From contig JAHREC010000030.1 of assembly GCA_020081605.1 (NCBI GenBank), forward strand, positions 1,550,001 to 1,614,000: a stretch of DNA of 64,000 nucleotides, in the 5' to 3' direction. This stretch comes from Albifimbria verrucaria (Eukaryota; Ascomycota; Sordariomycetes; Hypocreales; Stachybotryaceae). Both the position numbers and the translations under genes were made by a program. Below the pieces are notes generated by a model, which saw nothing but the letters and a program-made list of their open reading frames with translations, was not told the DNA's origin and searched no databases. Shown here piece after piece: positions 1 to 61,500 of the stretch. Each line of letters starts with the position of its first letter. The stretch's first letter is position 1.

Positions 1-3000
1 TGGGGATCGTACCCTCGGCTGTCGTTGGCCATTCCTCAGGCGAGATTGCTGCCGCCTACGCTGCCGGCATTCTATCGTTCCGTAATGCTATCATATGCGC
101 ATATTATAGAGGGCTATACATGTCTGAGGGCAAAAGCTTGCCTCAGAAGGGAGCCATGATGGCCGTGGGCATGACAGTGTCCGAGGGCCGTACACTTCTC
201 GAGCCATATATTGGACGAATTGCCCTAGCAGCCGTTAACAGTCCTACAAGCCTTACTCTTTCTGGTGACGAGGATGCAATTATTGAGCTCAAAGCCGAAT
301 TGGACAGAGCAGGCGTGTTCAATCGCCGTCTGCGTGTCGAACAAGCGTTTCACTCTCATCACATGGTGCCACTCGCCCCAGGCTTTGAAGCCGCGTTATC
401 CAAAACTCCTGGGTTCCGGTCAGAGACCGCTCAAGTAAGGATGGTATCCAGCGTCACAGCTCGAGACGCGAGCGCCAGGGTCATGGACGCAGCGTATTGG
501 GCAGCAAACATGACGGGGTTGTTCGGTTCGCCGATGCGCTCACAGGCATCCTTCTCGACGAGAAAGATGAGCCTGATGTCGACATCCTCGTCGAGATCGG
601 AGCGCATCCGGCCCTCAAAGGTCCAGCGCTAGACGTCGTGAAGAGCACTGGTTCGGAGCTTCCGTACGTGGGATCGCTAACACGCGACAAGCCTGCGTTT
701 GAGAGCCTTCTTGCTTGCGCTGGCGAGCTTCATAGCCTTGGTTACGAAGTTGATCTGGCTGCATCAAATAGCGACCACTGGCTCAATGTTGATGGCAATG
801 TGGTGGGCAAATCTACTGTAGGTCGTACTATTCATGACCTTCCCGCCTACGGTTGGGATCATGGAACGCATTGGTCTGAAACACGAGTGATTCGCCAACA
901 CCGCTTGAGGCCATCCCGTCATACTCTCCTCGGGGCGGTTGTACCAGGAACAGTGGACAACCATCCGACTTGGAGAAACTATCTGAAGATCTCCGAGATC
1001 CCATGGTTGAGTGAGCATGTGATTCAGGGCAAAATCCTCTTTCCCGCTGCGGGTTACATATCGATGGCCCTTGAGGCTGTGGCGAGTATTTCTACAGGAC
1101 GAGGTAGTTTTCAGCTTCGCGACGTTAGTTTCAAGAGCGCACTCGTACTAAATGAAAACGATGAAGTCGGTACCGAGATTCTCCTCGAGCTTCAACCCCT
1201 GGCTATATCGGCCAAGAGCACTTCTACTTCCTGGTACATTTTCTCCATATCTACGTATGACGACCGTGAGAACCTAGTTGAGCATTGTCGTGGTCAGATC
1301 TGCGCTGAAAGTCAGGTCGCGGTCGATCCGTGGGCAGCAGCCACTTTGGCTGAGGTTCGTCTAGGTACTGACCGCCGCAAGCCCTCTAGCCTCCACTACA
1401 AGCAGCTACGCAGCGTCGGTCTGGATTATGGAGAGAAATTCCGACTTATTTCCAACCAGATCGAGAGCGGACCCGGATACTCTTTGGCCAACTTGACCTT
1501 CTCTCCATCGAAGGTTGTCAGCTACTATGCGGACCAATGTATCCTTCATCCCACTATTCTTGACTCAGCTTTCCATGCTATCTTTTCGGCGATTGAGACA
1601 CGTACCGGAAAGCCCCTTAGCGAGAGTTTTGTTCCCACCTTTATTCGTTCCGCCCATTTTTCAAAGTCCTTGCTCCAGCAAAAGACTAGCGAACAGGCTC
1701 AAGAGCTTACGGTGCATTGCTCCGCTGACTTGCCCGGAACGCGAGTTGCCCACAGCACGCTTCAGCTTCTCAATCCTACCGTCGTAGATGGCCAGCACGA
1801 GGTCCTCGTCAAGCTTGATGGTTTGGAGTTGACAGCTCTTGGTAACGAGTCCGGAGATGCTGAGGACAAACGGAATCTCTTCTTCAATATCTCCTGGGCG
1901 CCTCTCTTCTCCCACCTTGGCACTGGCGAGAGCTGCGACACATACCCAACTAGTATCGCAGAAGCTGTCATGTTCCATTGTCACGAGGTTCCCAACTCGT
2001 CAATCATGCATCTCACATCATCCAAGAACACCGTGGAGGCAGTGATATCGAATATTGGAGGCTTGAATGGCGAAGACAGAAAGTTTGGCAGCCTCAATGT
2101 CTGGTCTCACGTCAACACGCAGGGTGCCCAGCAAGTATTCCAGGAGATAGAGCCTACTCTGAAGAATTTGATTGAACACGTGGAGCCAGAGACCAACAAG
2201 TATGACTTGGTAGTTCTTCACGAGGTTTACACAGGACCTGTTGAGAATTTACTGAAGCCAGGGGCTGTTGTCATTGATGCAACTAAGCAAACTCTTAGCG
2301 CTGTCTCGTTCGAAAAATTATTTAGCACCGAAGAATTCACCGTGTGGAAGGCACTCCCTAGCAGCAAAGTTGAGACCGTGGCAGAGAAAGAGGACATCAC
2401 TGTCTTGGTCTCTAAGAGGGCCTCTGCTGAAACAAGAGCCATCGTCTCCGACATCGTGTCGTCTTATCCGGCTACCGTTCACGTTGTCCCTATGGGGGCC
2501 GACAGCTCGTCGAGCGCACATGTTATATCCTTAGTAAGCTTGGATGAAGACTTTTGTTTGATGCTGAGACAGAGGCGGGGCATCTCACGGCTATCCAAGC
2601 CCTCGTTGCCGGCCCCGCGGAGAATGTGGTCTGGCTCACTCAAGACGCTGCCATTCACAGCCGGAGACCCGAGCAGGCCGTTATAAACGGTCTCTTTCGC
2701 AGCATACGGAGTGAGAATGATGGTTCGCGATTCGCAACCCTCGACCTCGAATCTAAAAGTATTCCAAATTCTTCATACATTTCCGATCTTGCCATTCGTG
2801 TTCTCTTGAAGATCACAAGCGAGGATGAGCTTGCCGAAAGGAACAAAGTTATCCTTGTCCCTCGAGCGGCTATTGACGAAACAAGGAACAGCAAGCTTCC
2901 TTTCATCGGAAATCGTCGAGTACAGCAGGCTCTATTTTATGAACCCAATCGTCCACTTGCTCTGAAAGTTGGTAAGACCGGCTTGCTCAGTAGCCTTGCC

Positions 3001-6000
3001 TTTGGTGACGATGGCGATATCGCAGACTCAGAGTTACCCCACGACCATATTGAAATTCAAGTTGGCGCATCTGCTCTTAATTCTCGAGACATCGCTATTG
3101 CAAGCGGCACCGTTGATGAGAATCGCCTGGGTGACGAGGCAGCTGGGACTGTGGTACGCATTGGAAAACAGATCTTACCAAATGACTTCAAGGTTGGAGA
3201 CCGTGTGATTGCACTGCGACCTGGACAGGGCGCTCACCGCACTTTTGTACGCAATCCAGCTAGTTTGTGTCTAAAGATCGAAGATAGCTTGTCGTTCGAA
3301 CAAGCAACCTCCTTTCCGCTCATCCTTACTACAGCCTACTACTCCCTATACACCATTGGTCGACTCCAAAGGGGGATTATTGCCTGATACACACTGCGGC
3401 TGGCGGTTTAGGCCAGATGGCGATACAGCTCGCTCAGCGAGTTGGTGCCAGAGTCATCGCCACAGTCAGCTCTCCAGAAAAGAGGGCGTACATTCGGGAC
3501 AGGTTTGGGGTTCCTGATAGTATGATTTTCTCGTCTCAAGACGCCTCATTTGTAGAGGGCGTACTGGCCGTGACTGGTGGTCGCGGAGTCGACGTCGCTC
3601 TCAACAGCCTGGCTGGGGAGCTGCTGCACAAAACCTGGAGCTGTGTGGCTCCATTAGGCCGTCTTATTGAGATTGGTAAACGAAATATCCAAGATAATAC
3701 GAAGTTGGAGATGCGCCCGTTCCATTGCAGTGTCATATTTGCAAGCGTAGACATCGGCACTCTCTTCCGCGTCAGCCCTGGACTTCTTGGACAGCAGCTA
3801 CAGCAAGCCTTTGCATTGGTGAAGGAGGGACAAATCGAGGCTCCTGGGCCTCTCAAGACGTTCACATATGGCAATGTGCAGACGGCTTTAAAACCCTCCA
3901 GAAGAGATCGTTCTTTGGCAAAGTAGTCCTCGTCCCAGATAATAAAGAGCTGGTTCCCATCACGCCAGCCTCGTTCACTAACGAGAGGATCTTTGCTTCT
4001 GACAAATCATACTTGCTGGTCGGCGGTCTCGGTGGGATTGGTAGGTCGCTAGCAGAGTGGATGTTCTCTCGAGGCGCTCGCAAAATTTGTTTCCTTTCAA
4101 GGTCGGGCGCCCAGACGCGAGATGCTCAAGAGACTGTTGCATGGCTTTCTGAGCGTGGCGCTGAGACATCTGTCTTCAAGGCCAATGTTGATCGCCTTGA
4201 AGAGGTTAAACCCATCATCGAATCCCTCAGATATACGCTAGGTGGTATTTTCCAGGCGGCCATGGTCCTCCGTGATGGTCCATTCGGACAATTGACGGCA
4301 GCCGATTGGAGATCATGTGTTCATCCCAAGACGTTTGGAACACACAACCTGCATGTTGCTAGCGAGGGAATTAACCTAGACTTTTTGTTTGTTTCTCATC
4401 CATGTCCTCCGTTGTTGGCACAGCAGGTCAATCCAACTATTCAGCCGCCAACTCCTATATCGATGCTCTAATGGCCCATAGGAGAGCAAATGGCTTAGCG
4501 GGAACCACTATGAATGTCGGTGTCGTCGGCGATGTCGGTGCTGTAGCTGAAGATGATTCACTCGCTACTATTCTAGACCGTATGGGCTACGACTTTATCT
4601 CTCAGAATGAGCTCTTCTATCAAGTTGAAGAGGCTGTTCTCACCTCTAAACAATACCAGTCCGCTGCCTTGCTTGGGCCGGCAAGACACCAAATAATCTC
4701 AGGTATTAACACGAAGCGCAAGGATGTTTACTGGGGCTCCAAACCATTATGGCGGAACTTGTATGGTAACTTAGATCTAAAATCTACCAGTAACGCCAAG
4801 GGTAAAGAATCTCTTTCGGCTTTGCTGAGCTCTGCGAAGGGCTTGGAAGAGCGTTTGGACATTCTCACGAATGCTTTCATCAACAAGGTTTCCGCAGTCA
4901 TGGGTACTCCTACTGAGTCGATCCAGAAGTCGCAGCCATTGACAGCTTATGGACTTGATTCTATTGTTGCAGTAGAATTCAGAAAATGGTTCACCACCAC
5001 CATTAGTGCCGATGTGCCCCTATTTGATATTCTCGGTTCGAAATCGATCAAGGCCCTTACAACCAAAGCACTCATGTATATCAAGCAGGAGGATAGCACA
5101 CAAAGCTCGAACGTCAATTCCAACTCTCTTGGAGTTACTTCTAGCAATTCTAGCTCGGGCATTAACACCAAGCGAGGCATGCGAGGCTTAGACATCCAGC
5201 CTAGACCTCTCAAACACAATACACCACTATCCAGTTTCCAGAGACGCCTGTGGTTCCTCCACAACATTTCCGCTGATCCAAGCACCCTCAACTTGTTGGG
5301 TACTTTCATACTTCAAGGCCAGCCTCGATTAGAAACGCTTCAAAGAACCTTTGAAGAGTTGGCCAGGCGGAACGAGATCCTGCGGACAATTTATACCGAG
5401 GGAGACGACTTCACCGAGCAGCTGACTGCTGACAAGTTTCAGTCTCAGGTCGAGCTACAGGATATAAGCTTGGCCTCAGACACTACTGCTGCACTCATCA
5501 AGGCAAAAGATAACCTAAGAGGCCAATCAATTGACCTCGAGATTGGTGAATCCATGAAAGTTCGTCTGATCAAAATGGCAAAGGATAGGTATGCCCTGGT
5601 TCTATCGTTTCATCATATCAATCTCGATAACGGCAGCACCAAGACAATCCTCGACCAATTCACACAAATTTACGATGCCATCTCTAGACAGAAGGACCTT
5701 ACCAAGATCCCCGTGCCTCGTATTTCTTATGCCGACTTTGCTGTCTGGCATAATGAATTCTTAGAAACGCCCGAAACTTTTATTCACGTTGATTGGTGGA
5801 AGGAGAATCTGCGTGGCGTTCCCGAATTCTCCAGCTTGCTTCCATTTTCTTCTAAAAGGAAAGGCCAGCCAGTAGACCTACGGAGAGATCGACCATGGAA
5901 ACGAGTGTATCTTCTACCGTTCTGAAGCGCTTGAAACGTATCTCATCTTCCACAAATGCCACGCCATTCCATTTTCTCATTGCCGCGTTCCGAGCATTTA

Positions 6001-9000
6001 TATATCGATACACGGAAGAGGATGATTTGACATTCCTCATTGTCGATGGTACCCGTCCTCATACTGAAGTCAGCGATATCATGGGTTTCTTTGTCAACTT
6101 AGTTCCGCTTCGTCTCCTTCTTGAAGCAGGGAAGTAGATTTTGAGACGCTCCTTTCCTACGTTTCGAAAGCGGCTTTTGGTGCCCTCGCACATAATTCAG
6201 TTCCTTCGACTCTATAATTGACCATGTGGGCGTTAAACGTAACGCCAGCTGCTTCCCTATTAGCCAGATTATGGTCAACTATCAGATTTATGGCAAGCCA
6301 CCAGTTGTCCAAACTGTCGACTTTAACATTACGGACATTGATTTCCAGGATATTCCGACTCCCGGAGACATCTCTCTCGAGGCTATTGAGGACCCAGCTA
6401 TAGGTCTTACGCTTAGGCTGCAGTATGACCCAGTGTTGTACCCAGGTGCTGAGATGGAACGCTTTTTGGAGAACTTTACCATCTTCTTAGCTGACGTTAC
6501 ACGAGACCACCGCCAACCAATTAATGAAATCGCCATGGCGGGTCCAATGGAACTTCATTATCTCCGAGAGCATTGTTGGGGACTGGATGTCACTGAAGAT
6601 TTGTGGCAGAATAAGAGCATCGTTACAAAGGTGCTCGACATTGCGCAGGCGCAACCGGCGTCGATTGCTATTGAGACATCCACCGGCGAGACAATCACCT
6701 ATGGCGAGCTTGTCAATCAGGCAAAGCAGGTTTCCCTCAATCTTGAGAATAGCGGCATCTTCACGGGCTCACTCGTGGCAGCTTTGTACAAGCCAGGCAT
6801 TGATATGGTGGCTGGGTTGCTTGGCATTGTCTTTTCGGGCGCCGGCTACCTACCGTTAGACCCTGATTTTGCCATTGAAAGGCTGAAACATATGGTTGGA
6901 GGCCCGAAAGTATCCGCTATTCTGGCGCAAAAGAATATAGGAGTTAGCCGATGAGCTGGCTGGCGGCAATTGTGTGGTCCATACAGAGAGGGTGGACTTG
7001 GCGGTAGAAGCTTGGACTGAGAAGCGGAACTCGCCTGCTGATCCTTTTACGTGATTTATACGTCGGTAGGTCAACAATATGCGGCTCAATCTGCCTTCAT
7101 ACATGAATGCTAACTTGTTCGTTTTAGGGCAGCACAGGGAAGCCAAAGGGAGTTCTACTCAATCATGGCAACACACGTGCGATGCTCAGCGCACACAACA
7201 CCCGGCATAACTTCTCCGCCGATGACAAAATTCTTTTTCTGACATCCTTCACTTGGGATGTCTCAGTAGCTCAGATCTGGGGTTCACTCACCTCAGGAGC
7301 TACCATGCTCCTGGCCAAAGAAGACACTCGCAAGGACCCAGATGCACTGGCGTTATTCTTACTACAGTCGAGAGCCAGTGTCACATACACAACCCCAACT
7401 CAGTACGCCTCCCTCCTCCTGAGGGAAGGGAGCAGCTATCACGTATGCGACAGTACAGAGCGGCCATATTCGCTGGAGAAGCTTTATCCAGTCGACTTGT
7501 TAGGGACGTTTACGATCTAGGCATCCAGGGTCTCAAAGTGTACAACGAGTTCGGTCCCAGCGAGGCAACAGTTCAAACTACTTGTTATGAAGCAACGTAT
7601 CCAGAAAACGCGGATGGATACGTTCCCATTGGCTATGGCTTGGCAAATTGCTCCCACTACGTGGTAGATAGCAAACTCAAGCCCGTCCCGGCTACCGTTA
7701 TCGGTGAGTTGTGCGAAGGAGGGCCTCAGGTTGGGGCAGGCTACATAGGCCAACCCGATGCGACAGCTAGAGTGTACGTCAAGAATCCGTTTGCGACGCA
7801 GGAACATTTTATGCGTGGATGGAACACCATTTACCGTACTGGTGACAGAGTGAGATTCCTCCTGACGGGCAAATGGAGTACAAGGGTCGCATTGCTGGGG
7901 ACGCCCAGGTCAAACTTCGCGGATTCAGAATCGAGCTAGGTGAGATTGAAAACGAGATAACAGCCATAGCTAGTCAAATGCCCAAGAAGCTAGCTGCCGA
8001 CGGAGCTGTTATCTGCAGACGCTTGGGAAGCGCTGACGAGGCATCTCAAGACGTCGATGATCGCCAGCTGATTGCCTTTTTGGTCACACCAAATGTCTTT
8101 TCCAAAACAGAGAAGGAGTCAATTGTCAGCACCCTGCACAGCCAGCTGAAAAAAGACTCAATTATTACATGATTCCGAACGGCTATCATTTCGCTGCGGC
8201 ACTACCGACTCTTCCTAGTGGAAAACGAAACAGGCGTGCACTTCACGACCTGGAACTCAACCTAATCTACCCCTCTCAGATAATGTATCCACTACTGGAG
8301 CTTCTAGCATACAATCTCATGCCGATGGTTCACATATCTTGGAGAAAGTTGTGGATTGCTTCCGAAAAGTGCTCAAGCTTGGACCAGATCAACATGTTGA
8401 ACCAAACATGAGCTTTTTTGACCTCGGTGGTCACAGCCTTCTGGTGCTACGACTGGCGGCTCAAATTAAAAAGGAACTCAACGTCAAAATTGAAGTCCGG
8501 GACATTTTCTCCGACCTTACACCAACTGCAGTTACGAGTGTTGTTGCAAAAGGGCTAGGCGTAGGCTTGGCAGCAGTTACCGGGCCAACTCTCGAGGTGG
8601 ATTGGAAAGCCGAAGCAGCACTCCCGGACGATCCATCATTCTACCCAGCTTCACGGGGCACAGATCTAACAGAAGTAAATAGACCAGAGTCTATCCTACT
8701 GACTGGTGCCGATTCAATCGCAGGGGTCCACTTGCTCGTGCGTTTGTTAAACCATGGTCACGCGAGGATCGTAGCACTTGGGACGGAATCGCCGCTCAGC
8801 CTAAAATCCCTCGAATTATCATTTGAGCGTTATGGTCTTTTGGTCAGTAGCTCAGAGAAGTGGACGGAGCGTGTAGAAATCTTGTCTGGGTCGCTGTCTG
8901 AGACACAGCTTGGCCTCGACGATGAAGCCTTCCATAAGCTCGGACGATCACTTACAACAGTATATCATTTTGGCAGCCAGGTATCTCTGCTCAAGTCCTA

Positions 9001-9765
9001 CTCAGACCTGAAAAGAGTCAACGTGTCTGCTACCAAAGATGTCATTCGCCTCGCTGCTTTGGGCGTAGGCACATCCATTCATTACCTCTCATCTTGGAGC
9101 GTTCTCCATCTTCAACTTTGGTCAACTTCAAGTCGCCAAAGTGATTCCATCATTGTCAAAGATGAGAAAGTCCCCGACTTTTTACTCCATCAGGTCCAGA
9201 ATATGCCTATTTCAAAACTCGCTGGGCAGCCGAGGTAATGCTCGCTGAGGCAGCGAGACGAGGAATTCCAACTGGTATTTATCGCTCCTCGGGTCTAGAT
9301 GACAACTCTTCTGGGAAAGAGAGCAACTTCTATCTTGGACTGATACGTGAAATGGTTCAAGGCGGAATTGTCCCCGATTTCGGCAATGATGGATTTGACG
9401 CCGATTTCGTGACCCTGACTACGTTGCGGACGTTGTGCTGCATCTGAGGGAAAAAGTCAGCGCGCGGCTTTAGAAACGCAGATATTCCATATCCGAAATC
9501 CATCTGCGGTATCTCTGAAAGACTTACCTGAAGCGTATGCCAACGCCAGCGGGAAAAGCGCACAATGTCTCTTGTTTCTGTAGACGATTGGTTGGCTACT
9601 CTAGAGCGAAGTGGCGAGGTGAACGCGGCCATCATGAGGGAGTATATCAAGCTGGGACATCGTATGTTCAGCTTAAATGACTTCAGGACCAGGGAGATTT
9701 TGAATAGTGGTGATGGTGGCCCAAGGAAAGCACTAGATGTTATTCCACGCCAGATAATCGCATGA
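1..9765 (+). CDS. Hybrid PKS-NRPS megasynthase, 5' end outside window, many frame changes
   Basis: Iterative polyketide synthase fused to one NRPS module, making a polyketide-amino acid product. The window opens inside the acyltransferase (GHSSGE at 27-44; end of AT near 600). Then come a dehydratase (hot-dog His in [14 protein letters not shown] near 1000-1050; [10 protein letters not shown] near 1545), an enoyl reductase (about 2935-3890, NADPH loop HTAAGGLGQ near 3395), a ketoreductase (VGGLGGIG near 4020; GQSNYSAAN near 4430), an ACP (GLDSIVAVE near 4955), a condensation domain (5218-6590, HHINLDN near 5611), an adenylation domain (6650-8240; GPSEA, YRTGDR and [11 protein letters not shown]), a carrier (DLGGHSL near 8425) and a terminal reductase (8690-9765, YxxxK at 9209). 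No C-methyltransferase motif is visible. The reading frame changes more than a dozen times, so no single intact ORF exists; this is either a pseudogene or a gene with indel errors. The A3 motif is split by a real intron at 7066-7127. Product unknown. Confidence 0.88.
7066..7127 (+). other. Spliceosomal intron inside the adenylation domain
   Basis: A 62-bp intron with a GTAGGT donor, a TGCTAAC branch site at 7107-7113 and a TTTTAG acceptor. It cuts the A3 phosphate-binding motif exactly between VIYTS and GSTGKPKG. This is the one discontinuity of the megasynthase gene that is clearly an intron and not a frame change. Confidence 0.8.
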
Positions 9766-10946
9766 TGCTTCTCATTCTGTGGGAAAAATCTAAGCATTAG
9801 GAGGGCGGGAGAAAGTGAGGCATGTATTTATATATTGGAAGATTTTCAGTTTCACTAGACATTTTAGTTTTCCTCTCATTGTTGAATCACCAAATGAAAC
9901 TATCTTAGAATATTGTTTGTTATATAAAAATCCAGGATGTCAGACTGGAACCTTTCAAAACTAAGCTAATAGCTAATGACAAAAGAAAAAGCAACAGGTG
10001 ATTCACTATTTCACCGACAGGTGTGAATAGATTTATAGCTACTCAGATTTTGCTGCATTTATTTGAAGACATTGGACTGCGCCTGTATTGCTGTCATACG
10101 AGCCTAAACAGCGTATAAGGCCAGAAGTCGAGCTATTTATGCTGCAAAGAAAGCTATCGGCTAAGTCTCATGACGAATTGTTTGAAGCTAACTATTGGCA
10201 GAAAACCTTGGAATATAATTGAAACTTGGCTGTAGCTTGCTATCTATCAGTGACAACATCGTGTTCCTAGCTATCTCTCAGAGGTACCTTCACTTAGACG
10301 AGCTCAGTTTGCGATTCCGAGCAATGATATCACCCAAACTCAGTCGGTGGCAGGAACTATGTTGCTAGACAGAAATCCCGCATTGCTCAGGGCACAGGGA
10401 GGAGTGCTCAGGCCCAGCCTAGTTTGACTTAATTTGGATTGCTACCTGTTCCGCTGGATAGCACCAAGCACCCAAAGCCTTGGGCGACTAGTAGTATTAT
10501 CAAGGGTGTATAACCATAGAGAAGTGAACATGAACGGAACTTGGACCAGTACTTCAGCCGACGGATAGGCCAGGGGCATTCACTTAGAGATGTATTGAGT
10601 AAAAAGGCAGCAGAAAGGGTGTTAAGTAATTAGTCGCGTATGACAATCATTCCACAAGGTTCTAAATAACGTCTGTTTTCCGGATCGCTTTTCCCAGCCC
10701 GCTGTCGATACAGCGCGAGACTTTAGAATTAGCTAGGATAGAAAGGCAATATTTTATTTGAGCATTTGTTGAGTAAATAATACAAACCCCTGGCTCCATC
10801 ACTTTCATCTAACAAAATACGAGATATCTAATCGTGCATCAGTTTTTGCCCCATGCGCTTGATTTCCTGCATAATAATGCTTACCCTTCTGTCTATTCTC
10901 CCACGGACCGTGTCTACATACTTTGGATTTTGTAGTACTTACTACT
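9766..10946. other. Intergenic stretch without a recognisable gene
   Basis: About 1.2 kb between the PKS-NRPS stop and the stop of the next gene on the opposite strand (convergent arrangement). Both 3' ends point into it. I see only short unconvincing ORFs and no RNA gene or repeat. Confidence 0.6.
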
Positions 10947-15624: not shown

Positions 15625-16623
15625 TCATTGATGCCCCGGTGGGTTAACAATACCCAACCGACTTCCCTTTCCATCTGGAAAGGCAACGCCGTGAGTCAGG
15701 TGAACCAGATATCCTGGCTCAAGTAAATTGACGGAGTGTTCACTTGCCCAGTTATATAGCCGATCGAAATCGACACACTGATGCGCTTCCGTATTATTAA
15801 GTGAAGGAACCTTGTCATAATCAACCCAGTAGTAACTGCTAACGCTTGTATCAGCATGGCACATGATACTTTGTCTGAGTTGATTGATACAGTGCACTGG
15901 CAAGATTTTATTAGCTTCTTGTGCTCGCTATCACTGTAAACAAATTAATAATGCGCAGGGATGTAACTCACTGTTATGCTGCATATTCAATTTCCTCTGC
16001 TCCTCATCGAGGTCTGGGAAGTAATAATCTTGAAACATGTACTGGTGCAGCCTTTTCAGGCAGTGCAGGTCGTGAAAGACGTACAACAAGCCAGCGTATC
16101 CTCCATCAGGAAGGTTAACATTAGGTTCATTTTCTCGGCCTAGTCGGTGGATATCATCGTCTGATATGCGAATATTGCTGTGCTGAAGGAGGGAGTCCCA
16201 CGCTGCGTCGAGCTCTGCACTGGGTAGGCCAATCAGTGGAGCACTGGCCTTTTCTGTGAGAAACTTCTGTGTTTTGTAGGAGATAGCGGCATTTGCAGGA
16301 GCTAATGAGATCAGTCGGTCAAACTATAGACTGGTTTATGGGGTAGTGAACGAACAAGGTGGTAGCCATGCTGGTCTGGCATTACTGAGTGAAAATTCCC
16401 CATGGGCTTTGTAAGTTTGGAACACTATAATGCTGAAGGCGGAGAGGATTCCAGCATGTATTAAAATGAAAATGACATGGATTCTTAGCACCTGAAATCT
16501 GGACCATCCAGGTTTGAAAGAAACATCGTCTTGGTCTGGTTGATTTTCATAATCTGAGATGCTGGCGGTGTCTGCATAGTCTCCTTTCGTAGCTAGAGCT
16601 CGCAGAGGTTTATAGCTTTCCAT
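15625..16623 (-). CDS. UstYa-like (DUF3328) oxidase, probable RiPP cyclase
   Basis: Three exons (16623-16386, 16301-15972, 15896-15625) joined by 84-bp and 75-bp introns give an uninterrupted 279-residue protein, normal for this family. The N-terminus is cytosolic and charged and is followed by one membrane helix (VIFILIHAGILSAFSIIVF, about residues 50-70), so the catalytic part should face the secretory lumen. The hallmark pair of HxxHC motifs is present: HDLHC in exon 2 and HNMHC formed across the second splice junction. They are followed by the usual INQLRQSIMCHADTS and HQCVDFDRLYNWA blocks. UstYa/UstYb proteins oxidatively cyclise ribosomal peptides in ustiloxin, phomopsin and asperipin biosynthesis; related proteins act in some other pathways. 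The gene is transcribed divergently from the repeat precursor at 17584, which fits a partnership. No frame change is needed. Confidence 0.88.
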
Positions 16624-17583
16624 TTTCGAAGAATAAGCAGTAGCCACAAAGTGAATAGAATGGATGATGGGTTTGCGGGTGTGAGTTCGGGGAAGCAAGG
16701 AGGAAACATTTATTATCTTTGCTGAGCAAAGGAAACTAAAATAGATTAAATTTTCATTATAGGTTAGCCACTGATACCGCTCAATCAGATTCTACTGGAC
16801 GCACATTGCCTATTATTGTTATCCGCCAGCCCCAGGGGCCCTTCCAGCTTTGTGCTGATGTCGGGAAATCAGGAAACGTTACGTTGCATTCGTTTCCATT
16901 CCATAGTACTATGCAGAGTCGACTTTCTGCCGCGCCATTCTCATGTCATCATTATCTGCATTACAGCTAAGTGTGGTCCATAAGACGGGGACCATTTTGA
17001 ATGCAACTCTGGACACGCAAACATTGGTCAGGTAATGCATAGGGCGGGGTTTCAGCTTTGGTCATGCATGACAGATCCACAGTGTCATAAGCAACTGGAC
17101 GCAGGTAAGAGATGGATCCCGATATGGACCCCGAAATGGACCCCGAAGTATGAATCAATTCGCTGACGCCCTGAGTTCTAATTCAGCCCTACACAAGAGC
17201 ACTTCTTCGACTGTGGAACAGTTCCGCCCAAGCTGCAGGTATCTCCGAACAAAGCAGTATAATTCATACTCACTATTACTTGACTAACCTCATCTTTCGA
17301 CTGGACTAACCGACAGGGGTGAACCGTTTGTTGGTTACTTCTTTGAGGATGCACCTAGTCGGACCAGCAGAAAATTGCGGAACGGCGAGGATGTAGTTCA
17401 AAAACTTGACTGAGCCATCTGCATGATGACAGCCATCTGAACTATAAAGAGGCATTCTCTCCCTAAGTTGGCGAACTATTATCATCAAACAGATCAGCCC
17501 ATTCCAAACTCACAATTGTTAATCAAGTCGCCTGAAAACCCCAAGCACTACCAAGACCCATTTGAAACTAGCCGTTGATCAAG
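16624..17583. promoter_or_regulatory. Shared divergent promoter of UstYa-like gene and peptide precursor
   Basis: This 960-bp region separates two divergent start codons, so it must carry both promoters. A TATAAA lies at 17443-17448, about 140 bp before the precursor ATG. A 12-bp tandem repeat with CCCCGAA cores sits at 17112-17147. A bidirectional promoter would allow co-expression of precursor and tailoring enzyme; that is inference. Confidence 0.5.
17112..17147. repeat. Three tandem 12-bp units in the divergent promoter
   Basis: Units are atggatcccgat, atggaccccgaa and atggaccccgaa. The last two are identical and the first differs at two bases. On the other strand they read TTCGGGGTCCAT, carrying CGG half-sites spaced one helical turn apart. 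Zn(II)2Cys6 regulators of fungal clusters often bind CGG elements, so this may be an operator, but no factor is known. Confidence 0.4.
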
Positions 17584-18080
17584 ATGCTTGTCTCCGCTAA
17601 GGCTTTTACTCTCTTCACTCTCTTGAGTGGTACAGCTTTGGCCGCGCCCATTGGTAGGTTTGCTAGTAGATTCAGATTGGAAGCATCAGTGACTAACATG
17701 TAGATACAGCGTCCGCTGAGGCGGCCAAAGGTGGCTCTTCCGATGCTGCCTGGGTGTTCACTGGTGGCAACGTTAAGCGAGAGAAAACCGATGCTGATGC
17801 AGCCTGGGTGTTTACTGGAGGCAACGTCAAGCGAGAGGAAACCGATGCTGATGCAGCCTGGGTGTTTACTGGAGGCAACGTCAAGCGAGAGGAAACCGAT
17901 GCTGATGCAGCCTGGGTGTTTACTGGAGGCAATGTCAAGCGAGAGGAAACTGATGCTGATGCAGCTTGGGTGTTTACTGGAGGCAACGTCAAGCGAGAGA
18001 AAACCGATGCTGATGCAGCTTGGGTGTTTACTGGAGGCAATGTTAAGCGGGATCCTGCCACTTCTACTGAGGCTGCATAA
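17584..18080 (+). CDS. Repeat-containing, Kex2-processed RiPP-type precursor peptide
   Basis: The ATG at 17584 begins a signal peptide (MLVSAKAFTLFTLLSG...ALA). A 50-bp intron (17654-17703; GTAGGT, GACTAAC branch site, TAG) joins in frame to exon 2, which ends at TAA 18078-18080; the protein is about 148 residues. After a short leader there are six copies of an 18-residue unit, typically EETDADAAWVFTGGNVKR, each closing with the dibasic Lys-Arg cut by Kex2 in the Golgi. The Asp-Ala pairs before the core resemble dipeptidyl-aminopeptidase spacers. AWVFTGGNV is invariant while its codons differ, so the peptide is conserved. This is the layout of UstA, PhomA and GigA precursors of dikaritin RiPPs, and a UstYa-like gene lies divergently next door. 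Mating alpha-factor precursors share the layout, but their peptides in this group carry cysteines that are absent here. Confidence 0.87.
17742..18050 (+). repeat. Six-unit 54-bp coding tandem repeat
   Basis: The conserved TGGGTGTT block recurs every 54 bp (first tryptophan codon at 17751, next at 17805). The period is a multiple of three, so each unit encodes 18 residues. Unit 1 has a divergent lead-in (SSDAA). Units 2 and 6 begin EKTDADAA and units 3-5 begin EETDADAA. Differences in the core are silent (GTT/GTC, GCC/GCT, AAC/AAT, CGA/CGG). The periodicity also opens long ORFs in other frames on both strands; those are shadows. Confidence 0.93.
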
Positions 18081-40952: not shown

Positions 40953-42191
40953 ATGGCTCAGGTGGTAGCTGGCTTCACCCTTCGCTGGGTGCTCACGGAG
41001 ATGGGGAAAGCCATTCCTGGCGCAGCGGGCGGCTGGCTATTCAAGGTAGCTGCTGATAAACTTTCTGGCGGCGATGCCTCAACAGAAAAGATCCGAAGCG
41101 ATATCAAGGCCCTTGCAAACCAAGTCTCGCAGGTGCAAACCTCGGTGGATCAGCTGTCCAAGCAGCTCAGTAATGTGTTGCTCGAATTACGTTTCGATCG
41201 TCTAACATCCCTAACCACTAAAATCACTGCCTCTTATGACGGCGTGTTCTTCGCCCTTCAAGAATGTCTGAACATGCCCAAGGACTGGACAGAGCAGCAG
41301 AGGGCTAGCAAGCTACAGGACGCTCGGATTCGTGTTGAAGAGATCTTGCGTTTGTGTGTGAACGAGCTGCCAACTTCTCTAGAAGGAATACACTCACTTC
41401 TCAACTCCCAAGACAGCCAGTCGGTACTGTCGCTAGCCAAGGCTCGATCGCTGGATAATTCTCTAGATTTTCTCTCCTACGTCTGCAAAATGAAGGCTTT
41501 CGCATTGCCTTTTTGGATTGCAGAGGCCAAGGCACTGTCGTTGCTGCAGATGGCCGTGGACACGCCTAGTGTGCATTTCGCCGGCGGCGAGAGCACAGTT
41601 AAAAAGTACAACGATTACGCGACCACGCAGGAGGGCACGTTTAACCATGTGGTTGGAACCCACGTCCTATCTCTTGTCGACGCTGTTATGAAGAAGCCTC
41701 ACGACCCAACGCCTGTAGAGTGGCAGATTGCTGACCATCAATGGCTAGTACCTTATCCATCTCAGGGCGTAAGCCATATCAGCCACCAGACAAGCCCGCA
41801 CCCATGGGTCCTGAAGCCTGTGTCAGACATAAGCCAACCCAAGCCGGATGGGTCGTATGCGTTTGAGATGTTTACTTTCGAAACTAAAGGCTTTGCCACT
41901 TGGGGTCGACAGGGCTAAGTTGGGGTGGCTACGGAGCCAGCATGTGAGTTGATGATCGAATAACATGGTGGTCTGAAAGTTTGGTGTGCTAATTAGCTCA
42001 CAAGGGGATACAATGATGATCATCCGAGCTGGTACATCAAACCCGGCGCAGCAGACAAATTCTGCTTCCGCTTCAACTACTCTTCCATTCCAGACAATAG
42101 ACGATCGCAATTCAAAGAATGGGATGGCCAATATCTCTCCCAGAACGAGGGAGGATTCCCAGCATGTTGTTCCTCCCCAAACTTGACATAA
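40953..42191 (+). CDS. Hypothetical protein with amphipathic helical N-terminal region
   Basis: Unrecognised. The ATG at 40953 opens a 321-codon frame. The N-terminus is glycine/alanine-rich and hydrophobic (MGKAIPGAAGGWLFKVAADK) and is followed by a heptad-rich coiled coil (ANQVSQVQTSVDQLSKQLSN) and several long helices up to about residue 240. A Trp/Pro-rich segment then leads to a second region. That region continues in another frame after 41915 (WGGYGAS) and after about 42010 (SWYIKPGAADKFCFRF), ending at 42189-42191. A possible intron starts at 41956 (GTGAGT). So at least one frame change, and perhaps a second, is needed. There is no secretion signal of the usual type. A helical bundle followed by a beta-rich tail is seen in several membrane-active protein families, but I make no assignment. 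Confidence 0.5.
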
Positions 42192-52143: not shown

Positions 52144-53154
52144 TGTATATATATCAAATGAGTGTGAGAGGGTCGGACTGTTGTAGTGGAGTGACTGGAG
52201 AGTAATTCGCAAAGACACAAACGGCGGCATTTCCTCCATTTAATAAAACGATTATGATAAATATCCGTCGTGCACGACCGCTCTAAGAATCAGGTAAGTC
52301 CAAGATTTGGCCGGTTAACTGTGGAGCAATATTGTGCGGTGGACCATTGTCCATTTCCTGTAGAGGACGAATCAGCGCAAGATTGTTGTTTTTAGAGCTT
52401 CAATTCCTAAGCTTGTTTTGAGAACGATTGCAGCTAGCCCTATTCTAGGCTAAGAGGGGTTCTTTAGAGCTCAGCTTTGATGACTTAGTGTTCTGGCTAC
52501 TCTGGGCTATGTCTTAGTGTCCCGACTATTCTAAGACTATGGCATTTATCGACGTCTAGCGTCAAAGACCCTCCGCCATACGACTTTATGAAGGAAAATT
52601 CTAGTGGCAGAGATGAGAGTGTGATTAGATTAAATTTGGCGCCTATCTGTGAATGGTCATGTCCTCCATTATATGACTAGCTACTAGCTGTAACTAGTCG
52701 GTTTGTTTGTTTTGTTTTTTTTTTGTTTTTTTGGCTAGAAAGTGATATATTAATTAATTTAGAATTAAATACATTTGTAAATACAGGTTCAAATGAACAT
52801 GCGATAAATCTTTTGGAATATAGAAGTAAATTAACTATATTCCATATAGTGAATATCGTTTATTCCACTCCATCGCTCTTTGCTTCTGCTGTATGATGGC
52901 TAACATCTGACTGTAGGCTAACCTGGGGTCGGGACTTGCCTCAGCTCGTTAAACAATCGCCTCTCAAGCTTCCGTCGTCGTACAATCCCAGGTCTGAAGG
53001 TGTTAGTTAGAAATTTTCCGTCCCTCGTGTTCCAGAGCATTTGATCTCTGTGGGAGATGCGTGGATTTACTAGAACGAGGAGATGTTGAAGGAACAGCCA
53101 TTTTCCACAAGACATATCCTCAGGGAGGAATGAGTGATATATATAACGATCAGG
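52144..53154. other. Upstream region of the WSC gene and boundary to AT-rich block
   Basis: About 1 kb with no recognisable gene; a T-rich run lies at 52705-52735. Base composition changes abruptly near 53160. Confidence 0.5.
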
Positions 53155-53400
53155 GGTTATTCTATACTATAAGGTAGGTATAGGGTAGGTAAGATCGAGG
53201 TTATTTATCCTTAGATAAATAAATAGGGCTTACTTTTAACTTAAAGTAATATATATTAAGTTATTAATCAGATTAAGTTATTCTTTAAGGAACTTAATTA
53301 AAAGATAGCTTAATAATTATATATTATTAATAGTTAATAATCTTTTAATTAATAACTAAAAAAAACTCTTATTTATATATTAATATTTTCTTTTTAAAAA
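53155..53400 (+). repeat. LTR-like direct repeat, left copy
   Basis: Matches 58193-58440 in the same orientation through ordered blocks: GGTTATTCTATAC.., AGGTAAGAT..GGTTATT, AAATA..AGGGCTTA, TAAGGAACTTAA, AAAGATAGCTTAATAA, TATATTATTAATA and an AAAAAACTC..ATTTATATA end. The length and paired arrangement suggest long terminal repeats, though RIP has erased clear TG/CA termini. Confidence 0.6.
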
Positions 53401-53884
53401 TAAGTTTATATTTTATTATTCTTAGAATAATATTAATTTTTATTATTTTTAAAAATAATAATTTATTTATTTATTTTTTATTTAATTAATAAATTTTATT
53501 AATTTATATTTTAATATTTTTATTTAAGCTTATTATATTATTATAATCTATATTAATATAATACCTAAAATATATTAAAATAAACTAACCTAAGTCTATA
53601 GAATAATTAAATATAATTATATATTATATTTATTTCTATGATATAAATAATATAATAATTTATATTATAATAAATTATATATAAAAGTTTATTTAATTAA
53701 AAATAAGAAAAATAAAATAATTATTTAATATAATAAAATATAAACTAAGAAAATCTTATAAAAAAATAAATAAAATTTAATAAAAAAAAATTATTATAAT
53801 ATATTATATAATAAAATATTAAAGTATAATAATATTAAATACTTTAAATTATTTTATATAATAATATATAAAATTATAAATATA

Positions 53885-54115
53885 TAAATAAAAATCTTCT
53901 TTTAATTATTAATTAAAAACTATTAATTATTAATAATATATAATTATTAAACTATTTTTAATTAAATTCTTTAATAAAATAATTTAATTTAATTAATAAT
54001 TTAATATATATTATTTTAAATTAAAATAAACTTTATTTATTTATTTAAGAATAAATAATTTTAATTTTACCTACTTTATATTTATTTTATAATATAAAAT
54101 AATCCCTAATTATTA
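53885..54115 (-). repeat. Inverted LTR-like copy in tandem unit 1
   Basis: The reverse complement reproduces the order of blocks of the direct LTR-like repeats (TATTCTTAAATAAATAAATA, then AATATATATTAAATTATTAA, then a TTTAATTAAAAA-like block, then TATATTATTAATAATTAATA), with further loss of G/C. Confidence 0.5.
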
Positions 54116-55469
54116 TATATTAATAGCTTTTATTTTAAATAATATTATTTATTATTTAAAATAATAATTATAATAATTAATTAAAAAATACTTAAAATTA
54201 AGCTAAATAGCCTTAATTATTATAATCTTAATTATTTATTATAAATAATAATAAATTAATATTAGCTTATACTCTATTTAATTATTAAGCTTAATTTAAA
54301 GTATTTTAAACTAAAGTTAATATACTTTAAAATTAATTTATTATAAAGCTAAAAGCTTTATTAAAACTAAGCTTATTAAATAAATTTAATAAAAATATTA
54401 ATAAAATTAAAATATTCTTAATTTAATATTAAATATATTTTATTTATTTTTAAGTTTTTTAATTAATATAGAAGATAGAATATTTATTATATATAAATAA
54501 TTTAAAAAAAAATAGTTTTTTAATTTAATTTTATTATAAAAAACTATTATAAATATTTAATATTTATTAAATATAATAATAAAATTAATAATATCTTTAA
54601 TAATTATATATATTTTAAAAAACTATATATAAATAGTTTAAAGCTATAAATAAAAAAGAAAAATAGAATAAAAAATTAAAAAAATCTATTAAATTTATTT
54701 AATATTAATTTATATCTTTAACCTTAAATATTAAATATTATTCTTTAAATAAAATAATAATATTTTTATAAATTTATTTTATAATAAACTTAAAGAAGAT
54801 ATTAAGAATAAATTATATAAAATAAAATAATAAAAATTTTAAATTAAATATATTATTATAATTATTAAAATTAATAATTATTTATATTATTAAAAGCTTT
54901 AATATAAAAAAGCTAAAATTATAAACTTTTATAATTAAAAAAAAAGAATTAATAAAAAAAAATATTTTATAGAATTTATATAAAGCCTATAGAATTTAAG
55001 ATTATTTAGAAAATTAATAATAAAAAAAACTTAAAAAGACTTTTTTATTATAATTATAATAAAAAAGCTATTATATATAAAATTATTATTTATTTAAAAA
55101 AGGAAATAAAAAAGTAAGTTTATATTATAATCTATATTAATATAATATTTAAAATATATTAGAATAGATTAATTTAAATTTATAGAATAATTAAATATAA
55201 TTATATATTATATTTACTTTTATAATATAAATAATATAATAGCTTATACTATAATAAATTATATATAGAAGTTTATTTAATTAAAAATAAAAAAATAAAA
55301 TAATTATTTAATATAATAAAATATAAATTAAGAAAGTATTATAAAAAAGAATAAATAAAATCTAATAAAAAAAAAATATTATAATATATTATATAATAAA
55401 ATATTAAAATATAATAATATTAAATATTTTAAGTTATTTTATATAATAATATATAAAATTATAAATATA

Positions 55470-55700
55470 TAAATAAGAATTTTCCTTTAATTATTAATTA
55501 AAAGATTATTAATTATTAATAATATATAATTATTAAATTATTTTTAATTAAATTCCTTAAAAATAATTTAATTTAATTAATAATTTAATATATATTATTT
55601 TAAATTAAAATAAACTTTATTTATTTATTTAAGAATAAATAATCTTAATTTTATTTATTTTATATTTATTTTATAATATAAAATAATCCTTAATTATTAT
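55470..55700 (-). repeat. Inverted LTR-like copy in tandem unit 2
   Basis: Second inverted copy, collinear with 53885-54115 at an offset of 1584 bp. It retains the TAAGGAATTTAATTAAAAA-type block when read on the minus strand. Confidence 0.5.
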
Positions 55701-58192
55701 ATATTAATAATTTTTATTTTAAATAATATTATTTATTATTTAAAATAATAATTATAATAATTAATTAAAAAAATATTTAAAACTAAGCTAAATAATTTTA
55801 ATTATTATAATTTTAATTATTTATTATAAATAATAATAAATTAATATTAATTTATACTTTATTTAATTATTAAATATAGTTTAAAGTATTTTAAATTAAA
55901 ATTAATATATTTTAAAATTAATTTATTATAAAACTAAAAGCTTTATTAAAATTAAATTTATTAAATAAATTTAATAAAAATATTAATAAAATTAAAATAT
56001 TTTTAATTTAATATTAAATATATTTTATTTATTTTTTAAGCTTTTTAATTAATATAAAAATAAAATATTTATTATATATAAATAATTTAAAAGAAGAATA
56101 GTTTTTTAATTTAATTTTATTATAAAAGATTATTATAAATATTTAATATTTATTAAATATAATAATACAATTAATAATATTTTTAATAATTATATATATT
56201 TTAAAAGGCTATATATAAATAATTTAAAATTATAAATAAAAAAATAAAATAAAATAAAAAATTAAAAAAATCTATTAAATTTATTTAATATTAATTTATA
56301 TTTTTAATCTTAAATATTAAATATTATTCTTTAAATAAAATAATAATATTCTTATAAATCTATTTTATGATAAATTTAAAAAAATATTAAGAATAAATTA
56401 TATAAAATAAAATAATTAAAAATATTAATTAAATATATTATTATAATTATTAAAATTAATAATTATTTATATTATTAAAAGCTTTAATATAAAAAAATTA
56501 AAATTATAAATCTTTATAATTAAAAAAAAAAATTAATAAAAAAATATTCTATAAAATCTATATAAAATCTATAGAATTTAAGATTATTTAAAAGATTAAT
56601 AATAAAAAGAAATTTAAAAAGATTTTTTTATTATAATTATAATAAAAAAATATTATATATAAAACTATTAATTATTTAAGAAAAAAATAAAAAAATAAAT
56701 TTAAATTAATTAAAAAAATAAATATTATTTTAATTTAATAAATCTTAAATAATACTTAAATATATTAATTTTAATATAATATAAATTATTTAAGTTTAAT
56801 ATTTAATTCTTTATTAAAATAAAAATCTTAAATATATAATTCTAAAAATTATAAAATAACTCTTTAAATTAATTTAATATCTTTAATATTTATAATATAT
56901 AAAAATATAATAATATAATTAAAGAAACTTTATAAAATCCCTAAAACTTAAAAAAATATTATAAATAAAATAAAACTTTAATAAAAATCTTTATAAAAAT
57001 TAAACTTAAATTAATAAAATAAAAATTAAATTTATATATTATTAAAAATAATAAAAATAATTTAAATAATTAAAATAAATTAAATATAAAATCTAATTTA
57101 AATTATAATAATATTAAAAGTATTTATTTATAATTTAATTAAATAAAAATAAAATAATAATTATTCTTAAAAAAATTAAAATTAAATAAAAAAATTATAA
57201 TTTAAAAATAATTATTTTATAAATAAATTAATAAAAAATTAATTTTATAAATATTTATTATAAATTAATTAAAATAATAAAAAAATAAAATATAAATTTA
57301 AATAATATTTATATTAAAAGCTTTAAAAAATATAAAATAATAATTTAAAATAAAAAGAATAATAATATTTATATATATTTTTATAATTCTTTTTATTATA
57401 TTATTAATTAAATTTTATATTTATAATATAAATATTTTTTATATTTAAAAGCTAAAATAAAAAATAATATATTTTTAATTTAAATAAAAAAATAATAAAT
57501 AATTAAACTATATAAAATAAAAGAATTTATAGTATTTTTATATATAAAAATTATTTAAAGCTTAAAATTATATTATTTATATTTAATATAGAATATTTTT
57601 ATAAATATTTAAATAAAAAATAAATTATAAAATAATATTAAAAAATATATTATAAAATCTATTATAATAAAAAAATTAAATAATTTTATATTTAAATAAT
57701 ATTTAATAATATTTATAAATTTATAAAAAAATTAATAAATAAAATAAAAAAATAAATATAAAATAAAAAATTATTAAAAAAATATTAATAAAAATAAAAA
57801 ATAATCTTCTTAATTATTTATAAAATAAAATAATATATATTTAAATTATAAAAATTAAAAAATTAATAATATTTAAAAAAATATAAAAAAAAGTCTATTT
57901 TAATTTATAAAGAATTTAAAATAATAATAATTAGAATAAATTAAAAAAATAATATAAAAAATTAAAAAATAAAATTAATTTTAAAAAAAAGCCTTAAAAA
58001 TATTAAAATAATTTTAATATAATAAAATTATAAAAAAATAAAAATAAATAAAATAAAAATAATTTTTATATTTTTAATTTTAATAAAAAATTAAAAAAAT
58101 TTTAAAATTTAAATTATATTTTATATTTTAAAAATAAAAATTAAAAAAAAAATATATTATAAAAATTAATTATATATACTTTAGTATAATAA

Positions 58193-58440
58193 TCCAGGTT
58201 ACTCTATACCTTTATAAGAGATATAGAGTAGATAAGATTAGGTTATTATTCTTAAATAAATAATAAGGCTTATTATTATTCTAAAATAATAATTATATAA
58301 TTATTATTAATTAGGTAAGTTACCTTTAGGAACTTAAATTAAAGGTAGCTTAATAACTATATATTATTAATAACTAATAGCCTCTACTTTTAATAATAGA
58401 AAAAACTCCTATTTATATACTAAAAGGTTTATTTATTTAT
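58193..58440 (+). repeat. LTR-like direct repeat, right copy
   Basis: Best preserved copy (CCAGGTTACTCTATACC, GATAAGATTAGGTTATTATT, TACCTTTAGGAACTTAAATT, AAAGGTAGCTTAATAAC). It borders the gypsy relic, whose 3' end would lie here on the minus strand. Short GGTTAATATATTTTATA-type repeats follow at 58620-58740. Confidence 0.6.
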
Positions 58441-58599
58441 AATAAATAAATAATTATTATTATTTATTTATTTATAGTAAATAGATAAGCTATATAGATT
58501 ATTATTATATAATAGCCTAATAATCTATAATAGTTATTACTTTATATAAATTATTCTAATCTTAGTAATTTATTTTTAATTATTCTATACTATCCTATA

Positions 58600-61500
58600 T
58601 TTTATATTACTCTCCTAAGAGGTTAATATATTTTATATATTAACCTATTTTATATTCTAGCCTATCCCCTATTAACCTATAAGCTAGGTTAATATATTTT
58701 ATACTAGCCTATTGCTAGGGTTAATATACTATAAACTAGCCTTAATTATTCTTTAAGAGTATTAGCTTTATCTTTTAGTATATAGCTCCTTTTCTTCTTT
58801 TATAATACTATTTTAATTATCTAGCTTTATATTAAATATACTTAAGGCTATCTTTTTTATTAATCTTCTATAAATAATAATAAATCCTTCTAGCATTATT
58901 TATCTTTTATTAATAATTATTCTAGTAGGTATTAATAGGTTTTTAATATTAATTTTATTATAGAGTCTCTAATAATTAGATTAGCTTATTATTATTTTAT
59001 TATCTTAGTTATAGTATTAGCTAGGGTTATAATATAATAGTCTCTCTTCTATAGCTAAATCCTTAAGGCTATAGTTCTTATATAAGGTTACTTATTACTT
59101 ACTTACCTTTATAGATTAACCTACTTCCTTTTTTTTTTTTATATTATATTAATATTATAATTAATTATATTTTATTAGATTCTACTATTTATTATTAGAA
59201 ACTTTATTTAGCTATTAAGCGATTTAATTTTTTTATTATACTATATATTTATTATAAGAATAAAAGGGTAGAGTATAAAATAATAAAAGAAGGTTAAAAA
59301 TATTAAATTTATATTTATTTAGGTTACCCTTATAATCTTAATAATATTCCTTTTCTTTCCTATAGATTATCCTTACTTTTTCTTTAATTATTTTATTATT
59401 GATTTCTTATAGTATTTTATATAATTAAGGAAGATAAATATTTAAAGTAGGAGAAGGAGAAGGCTAAGTTTAACCTTCTTTAAAAATAGGCTTCTCTAAA
59501 TAAGATTATTATAAAGTTAGTATAATTATATTATTAATATTATCTCCTTAAGTCTAAAGGGAGTATTATAGTTATATTTACTAAGCAGGAGGCTTTTACT
59601 AAAAAGGTCTCTAAAATAATTATTAATATATAGACCTTAGTTTATTTTAATATAATTAATTAGCCTTTATTTAATTTAAAGGAGTTTATAGATTTTAGCC
59701 CTTTAAATAGCTTTAAAATTCCTTTAGCTTAATTTTAATATTAAATAAGTTTTTAATAATTCTTAGGTATTTTTATTTTTATTATATCTTTTTTATTTAA
59801 TAAGATATTTTTTTTTATTTTTATTATTAACTTTATATTCTAGAATTTTTTTAATTTTATATTCTAGTTTAACTAAAAGAACTTTAATACTTTCTTTAAT
59901 TAATTCTCTATTTAATATTTTTTTAAAAGTATAATATAAAAGATATTATATATCTTTATTTTATTTAAAAGTTTAATTTTATAATTAATATCTAAGATTT
60001 TTTTATAATACTAAGAATAATCTTAGTTTCTTATAGTTTAATTTATTATTAGGTTTTATAGTTTTAATATTTATATAATATATATAAACTATATTTTCTC
60101 TTAAAAATTAATTTTTTTAATCTTTTTTATTATAGAATTCCTTTATTTTTATTTATATAAATAAAATTTCTTTATAAAATATATTATATAGCTCCTTTAT
60201 TTTATTTACTTTAATTATTCTTTTTTATATTCTATCCTTAATAATAACTCCTTATAGAATTTAGGTTTAAATCTTTTATTTATATAATATAGTATAAATT
60301 TAATAGTTTCTAATATACTTAAATTATAGGTAATTTATATAATTAATAATTACTTTATTTAATTATTTTATTTATAATTTATAAAATACTATAAATATTA
60401 TTTTAATATTTAGTTTATTTATTTTATTTATTTATTAATTTATAAATAATAAATAATATTAAATTTACTTTTTATTCTTAACTATACTATAAATTCTTAT
60501 TAGAATTTTAATATAAATATTAATTCTTTATTAAAAATAATTTTATTTAATAATCTATATTATAATATTATATATTTTAAGAAATAATATACTATATTCT
60601 TAGTATTTATAGCTTTATTATAAATAATAAAATATATAAATTTTATTAATTTATTTATAATAATAAAAATATTATTATAGCTATTCTTTATTCTTAGTTC
60701 TTTTAACCTAAGTAATTTTATTATAAAGTTTTATAAAATTAATTCCTATAGATATTTTAATATTAATAGCGGTTTTAAATATTTATAAGGTTTATATTTT
60801 ATTAATTTAATCTTATTATAAATATTATAATTTTTATATATTTCTCTATATATTATTAAAGCTAAGATATATTATAAAATCTAATAATTTATTTATAGGT
60901 TTTCTTTATTCCTAGGTATTCTATAAGTAAATTATTATAATATTCTTTAATTATTTTTTTAATTTTCTCCTTTAGTATCTATACCTTCCTTTTATAATAT
61001 TAGGTTTAATTATATTTCTTAAAATCTTTATTTTTTTAGATTATTAAGCTTTTTCTATATTCCTAGGATTTCCCTAAAGAAAATATTAAGACTTTAGTTT
61101 ATATAAAGGTAATTTAATTATTATACTTATATTATATATTTATTAATATTTTTAATAAAGATTTATATAATTACTATAAGTATATTTTATTTATACTCTA
61201 ATTTATAGCTAAGTATATCTACTTTATTATTCTTTAATCCTTTTTAATAAATAATTTTATAGTTAAATAAGCTTAGTATTTCTATATATTATATTTACCT
61301 TATTATTAAGGTTTATATTATTATAAAATAGAAGATATTCTTATAATTAATATAAACTTTAATTTTATACTTATTTCCTATAAGATAATATTAAAACTCC
61401 TTAAAACTTTTAATAATAACTATAAATTCCTTATTATATATAAAATAGTATAATAATAGTTTATTAAGTTTCTTTAATTAAAATATAATAAGGTATAAAA

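Follow-up and report, generated by a model that had tools for sequence, protein, structure and literature searches.

The class-defining enzyme of the dikaritins is a DUF3328 protein with two HxxHC motifs (PMC12048977). An older, five-gene definition also includes a tyrosinase, a peptidase or transporter, and a methyltransferase (PMC12048977). However, asperipin-2a is also made without a tyrosinase, and thus a tyrosinase is not required by the newer definition. The rings of ustiloxin, asperipin-2a, and phomopsin use tyrosine, and UstYa homologs are needed to form them (PMC7329392). DUF3328 proteins have recently been recognised as copper enzymes that attack inert C-H bonds, and halogenation, hydroxylation, macrocyclisation, and isomerisation have all been ascribed to the family. 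One member, CctR, hydroxylates and shows that DUF3328 enzymes can be membrane associated and dependent on O2 and copper (PMC12435403). As for precursors, Umemura 2020 reported 7878 KEPs in 1345 of 1461 strains, a KEP having an ER signal peptide and at least three tandem repeats of at least 8 residues between dibasic sites, none above 100 residues (PMC7329392); elsewhere the term is reserved for unmodified peptides (PMC7099791). DUF3328 genes were among the 15 nearest genes for 1758 of the 7878 KEPs, with a peak at the next position, and the DUF3328-linked repeats contained Tyr in 65.6% and Trp in 20.5% of cases (PMC7329392).

Here, we describe a gene pair in a window of 64,000 nucleotides (C22:1550001-1614000) of the Albifimbria verrucaria genome (48.4 Mb, 41 contigs). 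An earlier note had proposed that this pair was an undescribed two-gene locus for a cyclised peptide. Splice models confirmed the divergent arrangement, with start codons about 960 bp apart. The precursor gene (17584..18080, plus strand) encodes 148 residues in an open-frame splice model with canonical GT-AG, its exons (17584-17653 and 17704-18080) flanking a 50-bp intron (17654-17703). On the minus strand, a UstYa/DUF3328 oxidase gene of 289 residues (15625..16623), defined by splice model, PF11807, and homolog alignment, has exons 16623-16356, 16301-15972, and 15896-15625 and introns 16355-16302 and 15971-15897. The donor of its first intron is unusual (GTTCGT) and was chosen because the resulting junction fits the closest homolog (WLP.SPANAAISY). 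Judging from its position, the region between the two start codons (16624..17583) is presumed to hold both promoters. Within it, a 12-bp unit, ATGGACCCCGAA, occurs three times at 17112-17147 and is a possible regulatory element.

The precursor opens with a hydrophobic stretch, followed by a linker, the six copies of DAAWVFTGGNVKR, and finally a short tail. The copies (17742..18050, plus strand) start at 17742, 17796, 17850, 17904, 17958, and 18012, a spacing of 54 bp, and Tandem Repeats Finder, which placed the array at 17742-18049, scored it at 532 (period 54, 5.7 copies, 94% matches). The earlier note had counted six 18-residue repeats. Six copies are indeed present, but only units 2 to 6 have the full 18 residues, E[E/K]TDADAAWVFTGGNVKR, whereas copy 1 has a different flank, KGGSS. 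In protein, the full units are identical except that the second residue following KR is either E or K. Besides the first copy, there are five segments of equal length (16 residues) between KR sites, which agrees with the published repeat definition of a KEP. The most N-terminal part has a 15-mer of mean hydropathy 1.65 from residue 7, followed by an ALA/AP junction, and it is from these two features that we predict a signal peptide. Pfam matches of the precursor to DUF1285_N and DUF1317 were discounted as repeat artefacts, as no single stretch passes alone.

The repeat peptide, including KR, looks constrained, because all seven variable bases among the six copies of the 13-codon unit are silent. 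The encoded protein would be altered by 27 of the 39 transitions, and by 88 of the 117 single changes, that this unit allows; the copies share a common ancestry and may convert each other, and we claim no exact probability. The invariant core, AWVFTGGNV, contains no Tyr, and its aromatic residues are Trp and Phe. The core DNA pattern matched six times in the 48.4-Mb genome, each time inside the precursor gene, and the reversed pattern matched nowhere in the genome. We found no paralog of the precursor in the genome besides the gene itself. No homolog was found at E <= 0.01 among the 7994 candidates sharing most words that were scored, a weak null because annotation often omits small genes and the search would miss cores that have diverged strongly. 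Four fragments of the core drew no mention in the main texts of 5.39 million open papers. That 2560 KEPs had no homolog (PMC7329392) indicates that a stand-alone core like AWVFTGGNV is usual. Thus, within the searches made, the core is unreported and Tyr-free, and "undescribed" is apt for it; the word does not suit the kind of locus, which the survey portrays as common (PMC7329392). Most likely, the locus adds another uncharacterised example to a familiar class of peptide-making loci in fungi.

The oxidase matched PF11807 with 172.2 bits (cut-off, 25) on an earlier 279-residue splice model and with 145.5 bits on the unspliced genome. Its metal motifs are HDLHC at residue 166 (exon 2) and HNMHC at residue 198 (exon 2/3 junction), and H166, H169, H198, and C202 are invariant in 10 of 10 aligned sequences. 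The most hydrophobic 19-mer, the presumptive anchor, starts at residue 50. Thus, the membrane-anchored DUF3328 protein with both HxxHC motifs described in the earlier note stands, and the protein has the features of the enzyme that defines the dikaritins. A single-sequence search gave 10 matches and a four-sequence profile gave 108. The closest homolog is HD806DRAFT_67567 (P0001) of Xylariaceae sp. AK1471, with 74% identity (72% with the first splice model); no homolog of the precursor was found for it among the 7994 candidates scored. A JGI metagenome protein (P0002) is 84% identical over 42% of the query, and its translation leaves the family pattern after the first HxxHC motif. Both look orthologous to the oxidase. 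The next named relatives, from Fusarium, Paraphoma, Colletotrichum, and Xylaria, share 37 to 48% identity, and the nearest relative inside the same genome shares 36%. Such a narrow spread of apparent orthologs fits a specialised-metabolite gene. The open literature yielded no joint mention of Xylaria, RiPP, and UstYa; for Anthostomella pinea, of the Xylariaceae, 23 fungal RiPP clusters have been predicted (PMC10763133). A structural model of P0001, built from 9 sequences (mean pLDDT 68.0, pTM 0.56), places the motifs on helices 163-178 and 189-210. No solved relative was found by sequence, and none of 13 Foldseek matches reached E <= 0.001.

Alpha-pheromone precursors of ascomycetes carry the repeat motif WC...GQ.C. 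An alpha mating pheromone precursor would have the same plan as the repeat protein here, with a predicted signal peptide, KR-separated repeats, and a Trp near the presumed mature start. However, WC...GQ.C is absent from the precursor, and a separate open frame on C8 encodes WCYRPGQGCW four times, then K[A/V]KR. In addition, all but three pheromone-type KEPs are without DUF3328 neighbours (PMC7329392). A pheromone identity is contradicted by the sequence, the likely pheromone gene lying elsewhere, and we give it next to no credence.

We then asked how the pair compares with other UstYa genes of the genome. The 35 PF11807 matches were grouped into 20 regions, including that of the window. A strict KEP finder detected repeat precursors, with unrelated cores, in 3 of the 19 other regions (L007-L025), all on the minus strand: VDSTNNQAGWG repeats at L010:1637-2167, DDVVVADGF-type repeats at L017:4291-4749, and FSGDGHLGINSDASESSYD-type repeats at L018:2706-3215. 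In L010 and L018 the precursor and UstYa genes are divergent, like the window pair, and at L017, which has two UstYa neighbours, the precursor is divergent from one of them. The finder had no match in the remaining 16 of the 19 regions, and thus the presence of a UstYa gene is not by itself a sign of a RiPP. One of the finder's candidates read the window's own array a second time, out of frame, and was dropped. In controls, it found nothing in 33780 segments of resampled DNA or in 797 segments of 13 control loci. Its sensitivity is limited: introns can hide further precursors, and it missed the pheromone gene with four copies, at which four of the control loci (L030 to L033) overlap. A looser periodicity scan added L015, with a His-His repeat bounded by KR, and showed that L013, L022, and L023 have repeats that lack clean dibasic sites. 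We also observed three UstYa-family matches in 5 kb at L007 (G000 C15:257619-262156), where the finder flagged no repeat precursor; the likely alpha-pheromone gene described above, with its WCYRPGQGCW repeats, is at L030 (G000 C8:4603609-4604136).

Alternatively, the repeat protein could be secreted as a linear KEP, with a UstYa gene next to it that is unrelated and belongs, for instance, to a nearby PKS-NRPS gene. In favour of this, 78% of KEPs have no DUF3328 gene nearby (PMC7329392), most of the about 20 UstYa regions have no detected KEP, and the PKS-NRPS gene is about 6 kb from the UstYa gene. However, the pair is directly divergent, the next position is the commonest one for KEP-linked UstYa genes (PMC7329392), the divergent layout recurs in L010 and L018, and the five open frames scanned between the PKS-NRPS and UstYa genes have no Pfam match. 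We consider a chance neighbourhood quite unlikely. The PKS-NRPS gene itself is a hybrid fragment that fills positions ~1 to 9800 on the plus strand and starts to the left of the window, with dehydratase, ketoreductase, ACP, condensation, AMP-binding, PP-binding, and terminal NAD_binding_4 domains.

Beyond the precursor, an S8 subtilase gene runs from ~22.05 to 18.8 kb on the minus strand and ends ~0.7 kb past the precursor. Its reading frame appears shifted near 20.4 kb, which may reflect an overlooked intron, a fault in the assembly, or a genuine break. We found no kexin-typical P-domain at this gene; in the whole genome, a kexin-type P-domain occurs on C10 alone. None of the 69 PF00264 (tyrosinase) matches of the genome is in the window, the nearest being ~0.2 Mb away on C22, and thus the tyrosinase element of the older dikaritin definition is missing from the window. 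The window also has no S41 peptidase match. No methyltransferase occurred among the window proteins scanned, and a search for MFS transporters scored 9 of 680 candidates. Therefore, calling the locus "two-gene" fits as regards a tyrosinase and an S41 peptidase in the window, but the adjoining subtilase is a possible partner of the pair.

Elsewhere in the window are a pectate lyase gene (PF00544; 30625-31824, plus strand) and WSC-domain genes (PF01822; 49763-52239, minus strand), which are cell-wall-related and have no evident link to the pair. A viral PF05531 match on the open reading frame at 40953-41918 was below its own cut-off. Positions 53000 to 64000 are extremely AT-rich (G+C, 2.6 to 17% per kb), presumably resembling the heavily mutated repeat compartments of fungal genomes.

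Taken together, the KR-ending repeats after a hydrophobic start, the UstYa match, and the invariant HxxHC residues support a RiPP reading. So do the silent-only variation, the peak of DUF3328 genes at the next position (PMC7329392), the three further KEP-UstYa pairs, and the kexin P-domain on C10. Against it are the lack of Tyr in the core, when 65.6% of DUF3328-linked repeats contain it (PMC7329392), and the absence from the window of a tyrosinase and an S41 peptidase, both part of the ustiloxin/phomopsin pattern. Further counterpoints are that the 7994 candidates scored yielded no precursor homolog to go with the oxidase of any relative, and that 16 of the 19 other UstYa regions had no strict KEP match. 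On balance, the pair is probably a minimal dikaritin-type RiPP locus, with a repeat precursor, a UstYa oxidase, and most likely a side-chain cross-linked core. The assignment to Kex2-type repeat precursors with UstYa partners, already made in the earlier note, is thereby upheld by the anatomy, the family match, the silent-only variation, and the survey statistics (PMC7329392).

Such a locus would work as follows. The precursor would enter the secretory pathway via its predicted signal peptide, and a kexin encoded elsewhere in the genome would cut after each KR. Trimming of KR would leave mainly E[E/K]TDADAAWVFTGGNV 16-mers, in which the acidic, Ala-rich part may be a spacer or recognition tag and AWVFTGGNV, whole or in part, the core. 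The membrane-anchored UstYa protein, with its HxxHC pair on paired helices, would be the copper oxidase that works on the core, most likely forming a side-chain bond with Trp or Phe. Entry into the ER would probably come first and Kex2 cleavage at KR second, after which UstYa would oxidise the core, with trimming by further peptidases as the last step. Ustiloxins, phomopsins, and asperipin-2a depend on Tyr-ether chemistry, which a core devoid of Tyr cannot undergo, and the reacting residue would need to be Trp or Phe. Victorin is described as ringed through Phe (PMC9233826), and thus a Tyr-free ring would not be unprecedented. The calculated [M+H]+ of EETDADAAWVFTGGNV is 1681.734, or 1679.718 after loss of 2 H; for AWVFTGGNV, the values are 950.473 and 948.457.

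It is also conceivable that the modification of the repeat peptide by UstYa leaves no ring, with hydroxylation, dehydrogenation, and halogenation as examples. The varied chemistry credited to DUF3328 members, with CctR as a hydroxylating case (PMC12435403), and the lack of Tyr for the usual ether link both speak for this. However, the UstYa homologs of the ustiloxin, asperipin-2a, and phomopsin loci serve ring formation (PMC7329392), and we regard a ringless product as unlikely. Given the Tyr-free core and the hydroxylation and halogenation also ascribed to the family (PMC12435403), the "cyclised" of the earlier note keeps the rank of an inference.

A more specific form of the cross-linking reading draws on KEP motif 3, DADAATXYV[A/V]D, a conserved Pezizomycotina repeat (Le Marquer et al. 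2019, PMC6339444). Both this motif and DADAAWVFT have DADAA with an aromatic residue three positions later, and the remainder of the repeat is unlike the precursor here. In our search of open literature text, DADAA was mentioned with Kex2 in PMC6339444 alone. The pattern DADAAxx[F/Y] matched six times in the genome, five times in the precursor gene and once on C6 outside a repeat context. The reversed pattern matched four times, and thus DADAAxx[F/Y] alone is not rare. The likeness is a lead only, as these are acidic, Ala-rich sequences that may have converged. We tentatively propose, as a possibility we would not bet on, a cyclic peptide free of Tyr, with Trp or Phe of AWVFTGGNV cross-linked by a single UstYa copper oxidase and with DADAA as a portable recognition tag, shared with DADAATXYV repeats, with the modified aromatic residue three positions downstream. 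If DADAA is a recognition tag, this would help to predict the modified residues in many uncharacterised fungal repeat precursors. How DUF3328 enzymes choose their target residue is little known, and a minimal pair is a clean test case, with one enzyme, one peptide, two aromatic residues, and an invariant, Tyr-free core present six times.

Among the described systems, the ustiloxin and phomopsin loci share with the pair a signal peptide (here predicted), Kex2-separated repeats, and a UstYa oxidase with two HxxHC motifs. However, at those loci several DUF3328 genes are accompanied by a tyrosinase and other enzymes (PMC7329392, PMC6514808), whereas there is one DUF3328 gene here; their pattern includes a tyrosinase and an S41 peptidase, the window has neither, and the core differs. 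The victorin locus of Cochliobolus victoriae is also described as having a multi-core Kex2-type precursor, with a product ringed through Phe, not Tyr (PMC9233826). By description, a different core, a chlorinated product, and cluster peptidases set it apart. CctR has two coppers at HxxHC(x)nHxxHC in a four-helix coiled coil, with a proposed lumenal position of the domain, and its motifs are placed on helices as in the P0001 model (PMC12435403); its elements recur, in unchanged order, in the window's UstYa protein. The asperipin-2a locus of Aspergillus flavus (aprA/aprY) includes a transporter (aprT) and a reductase (aprR), whose counterparts were not identified at the locus here, and asperipin-2a joins Tyr side chains, which the core here does not have. 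Nevertheless, that locus likewise combines a repeat precursor with a single DUF3328 oxidase, its four listed genes include no tyrosinase, and its core, FYYTGY, has in common with VFTGG the sequence aromatic-Thr-Gly (PMC6514808).
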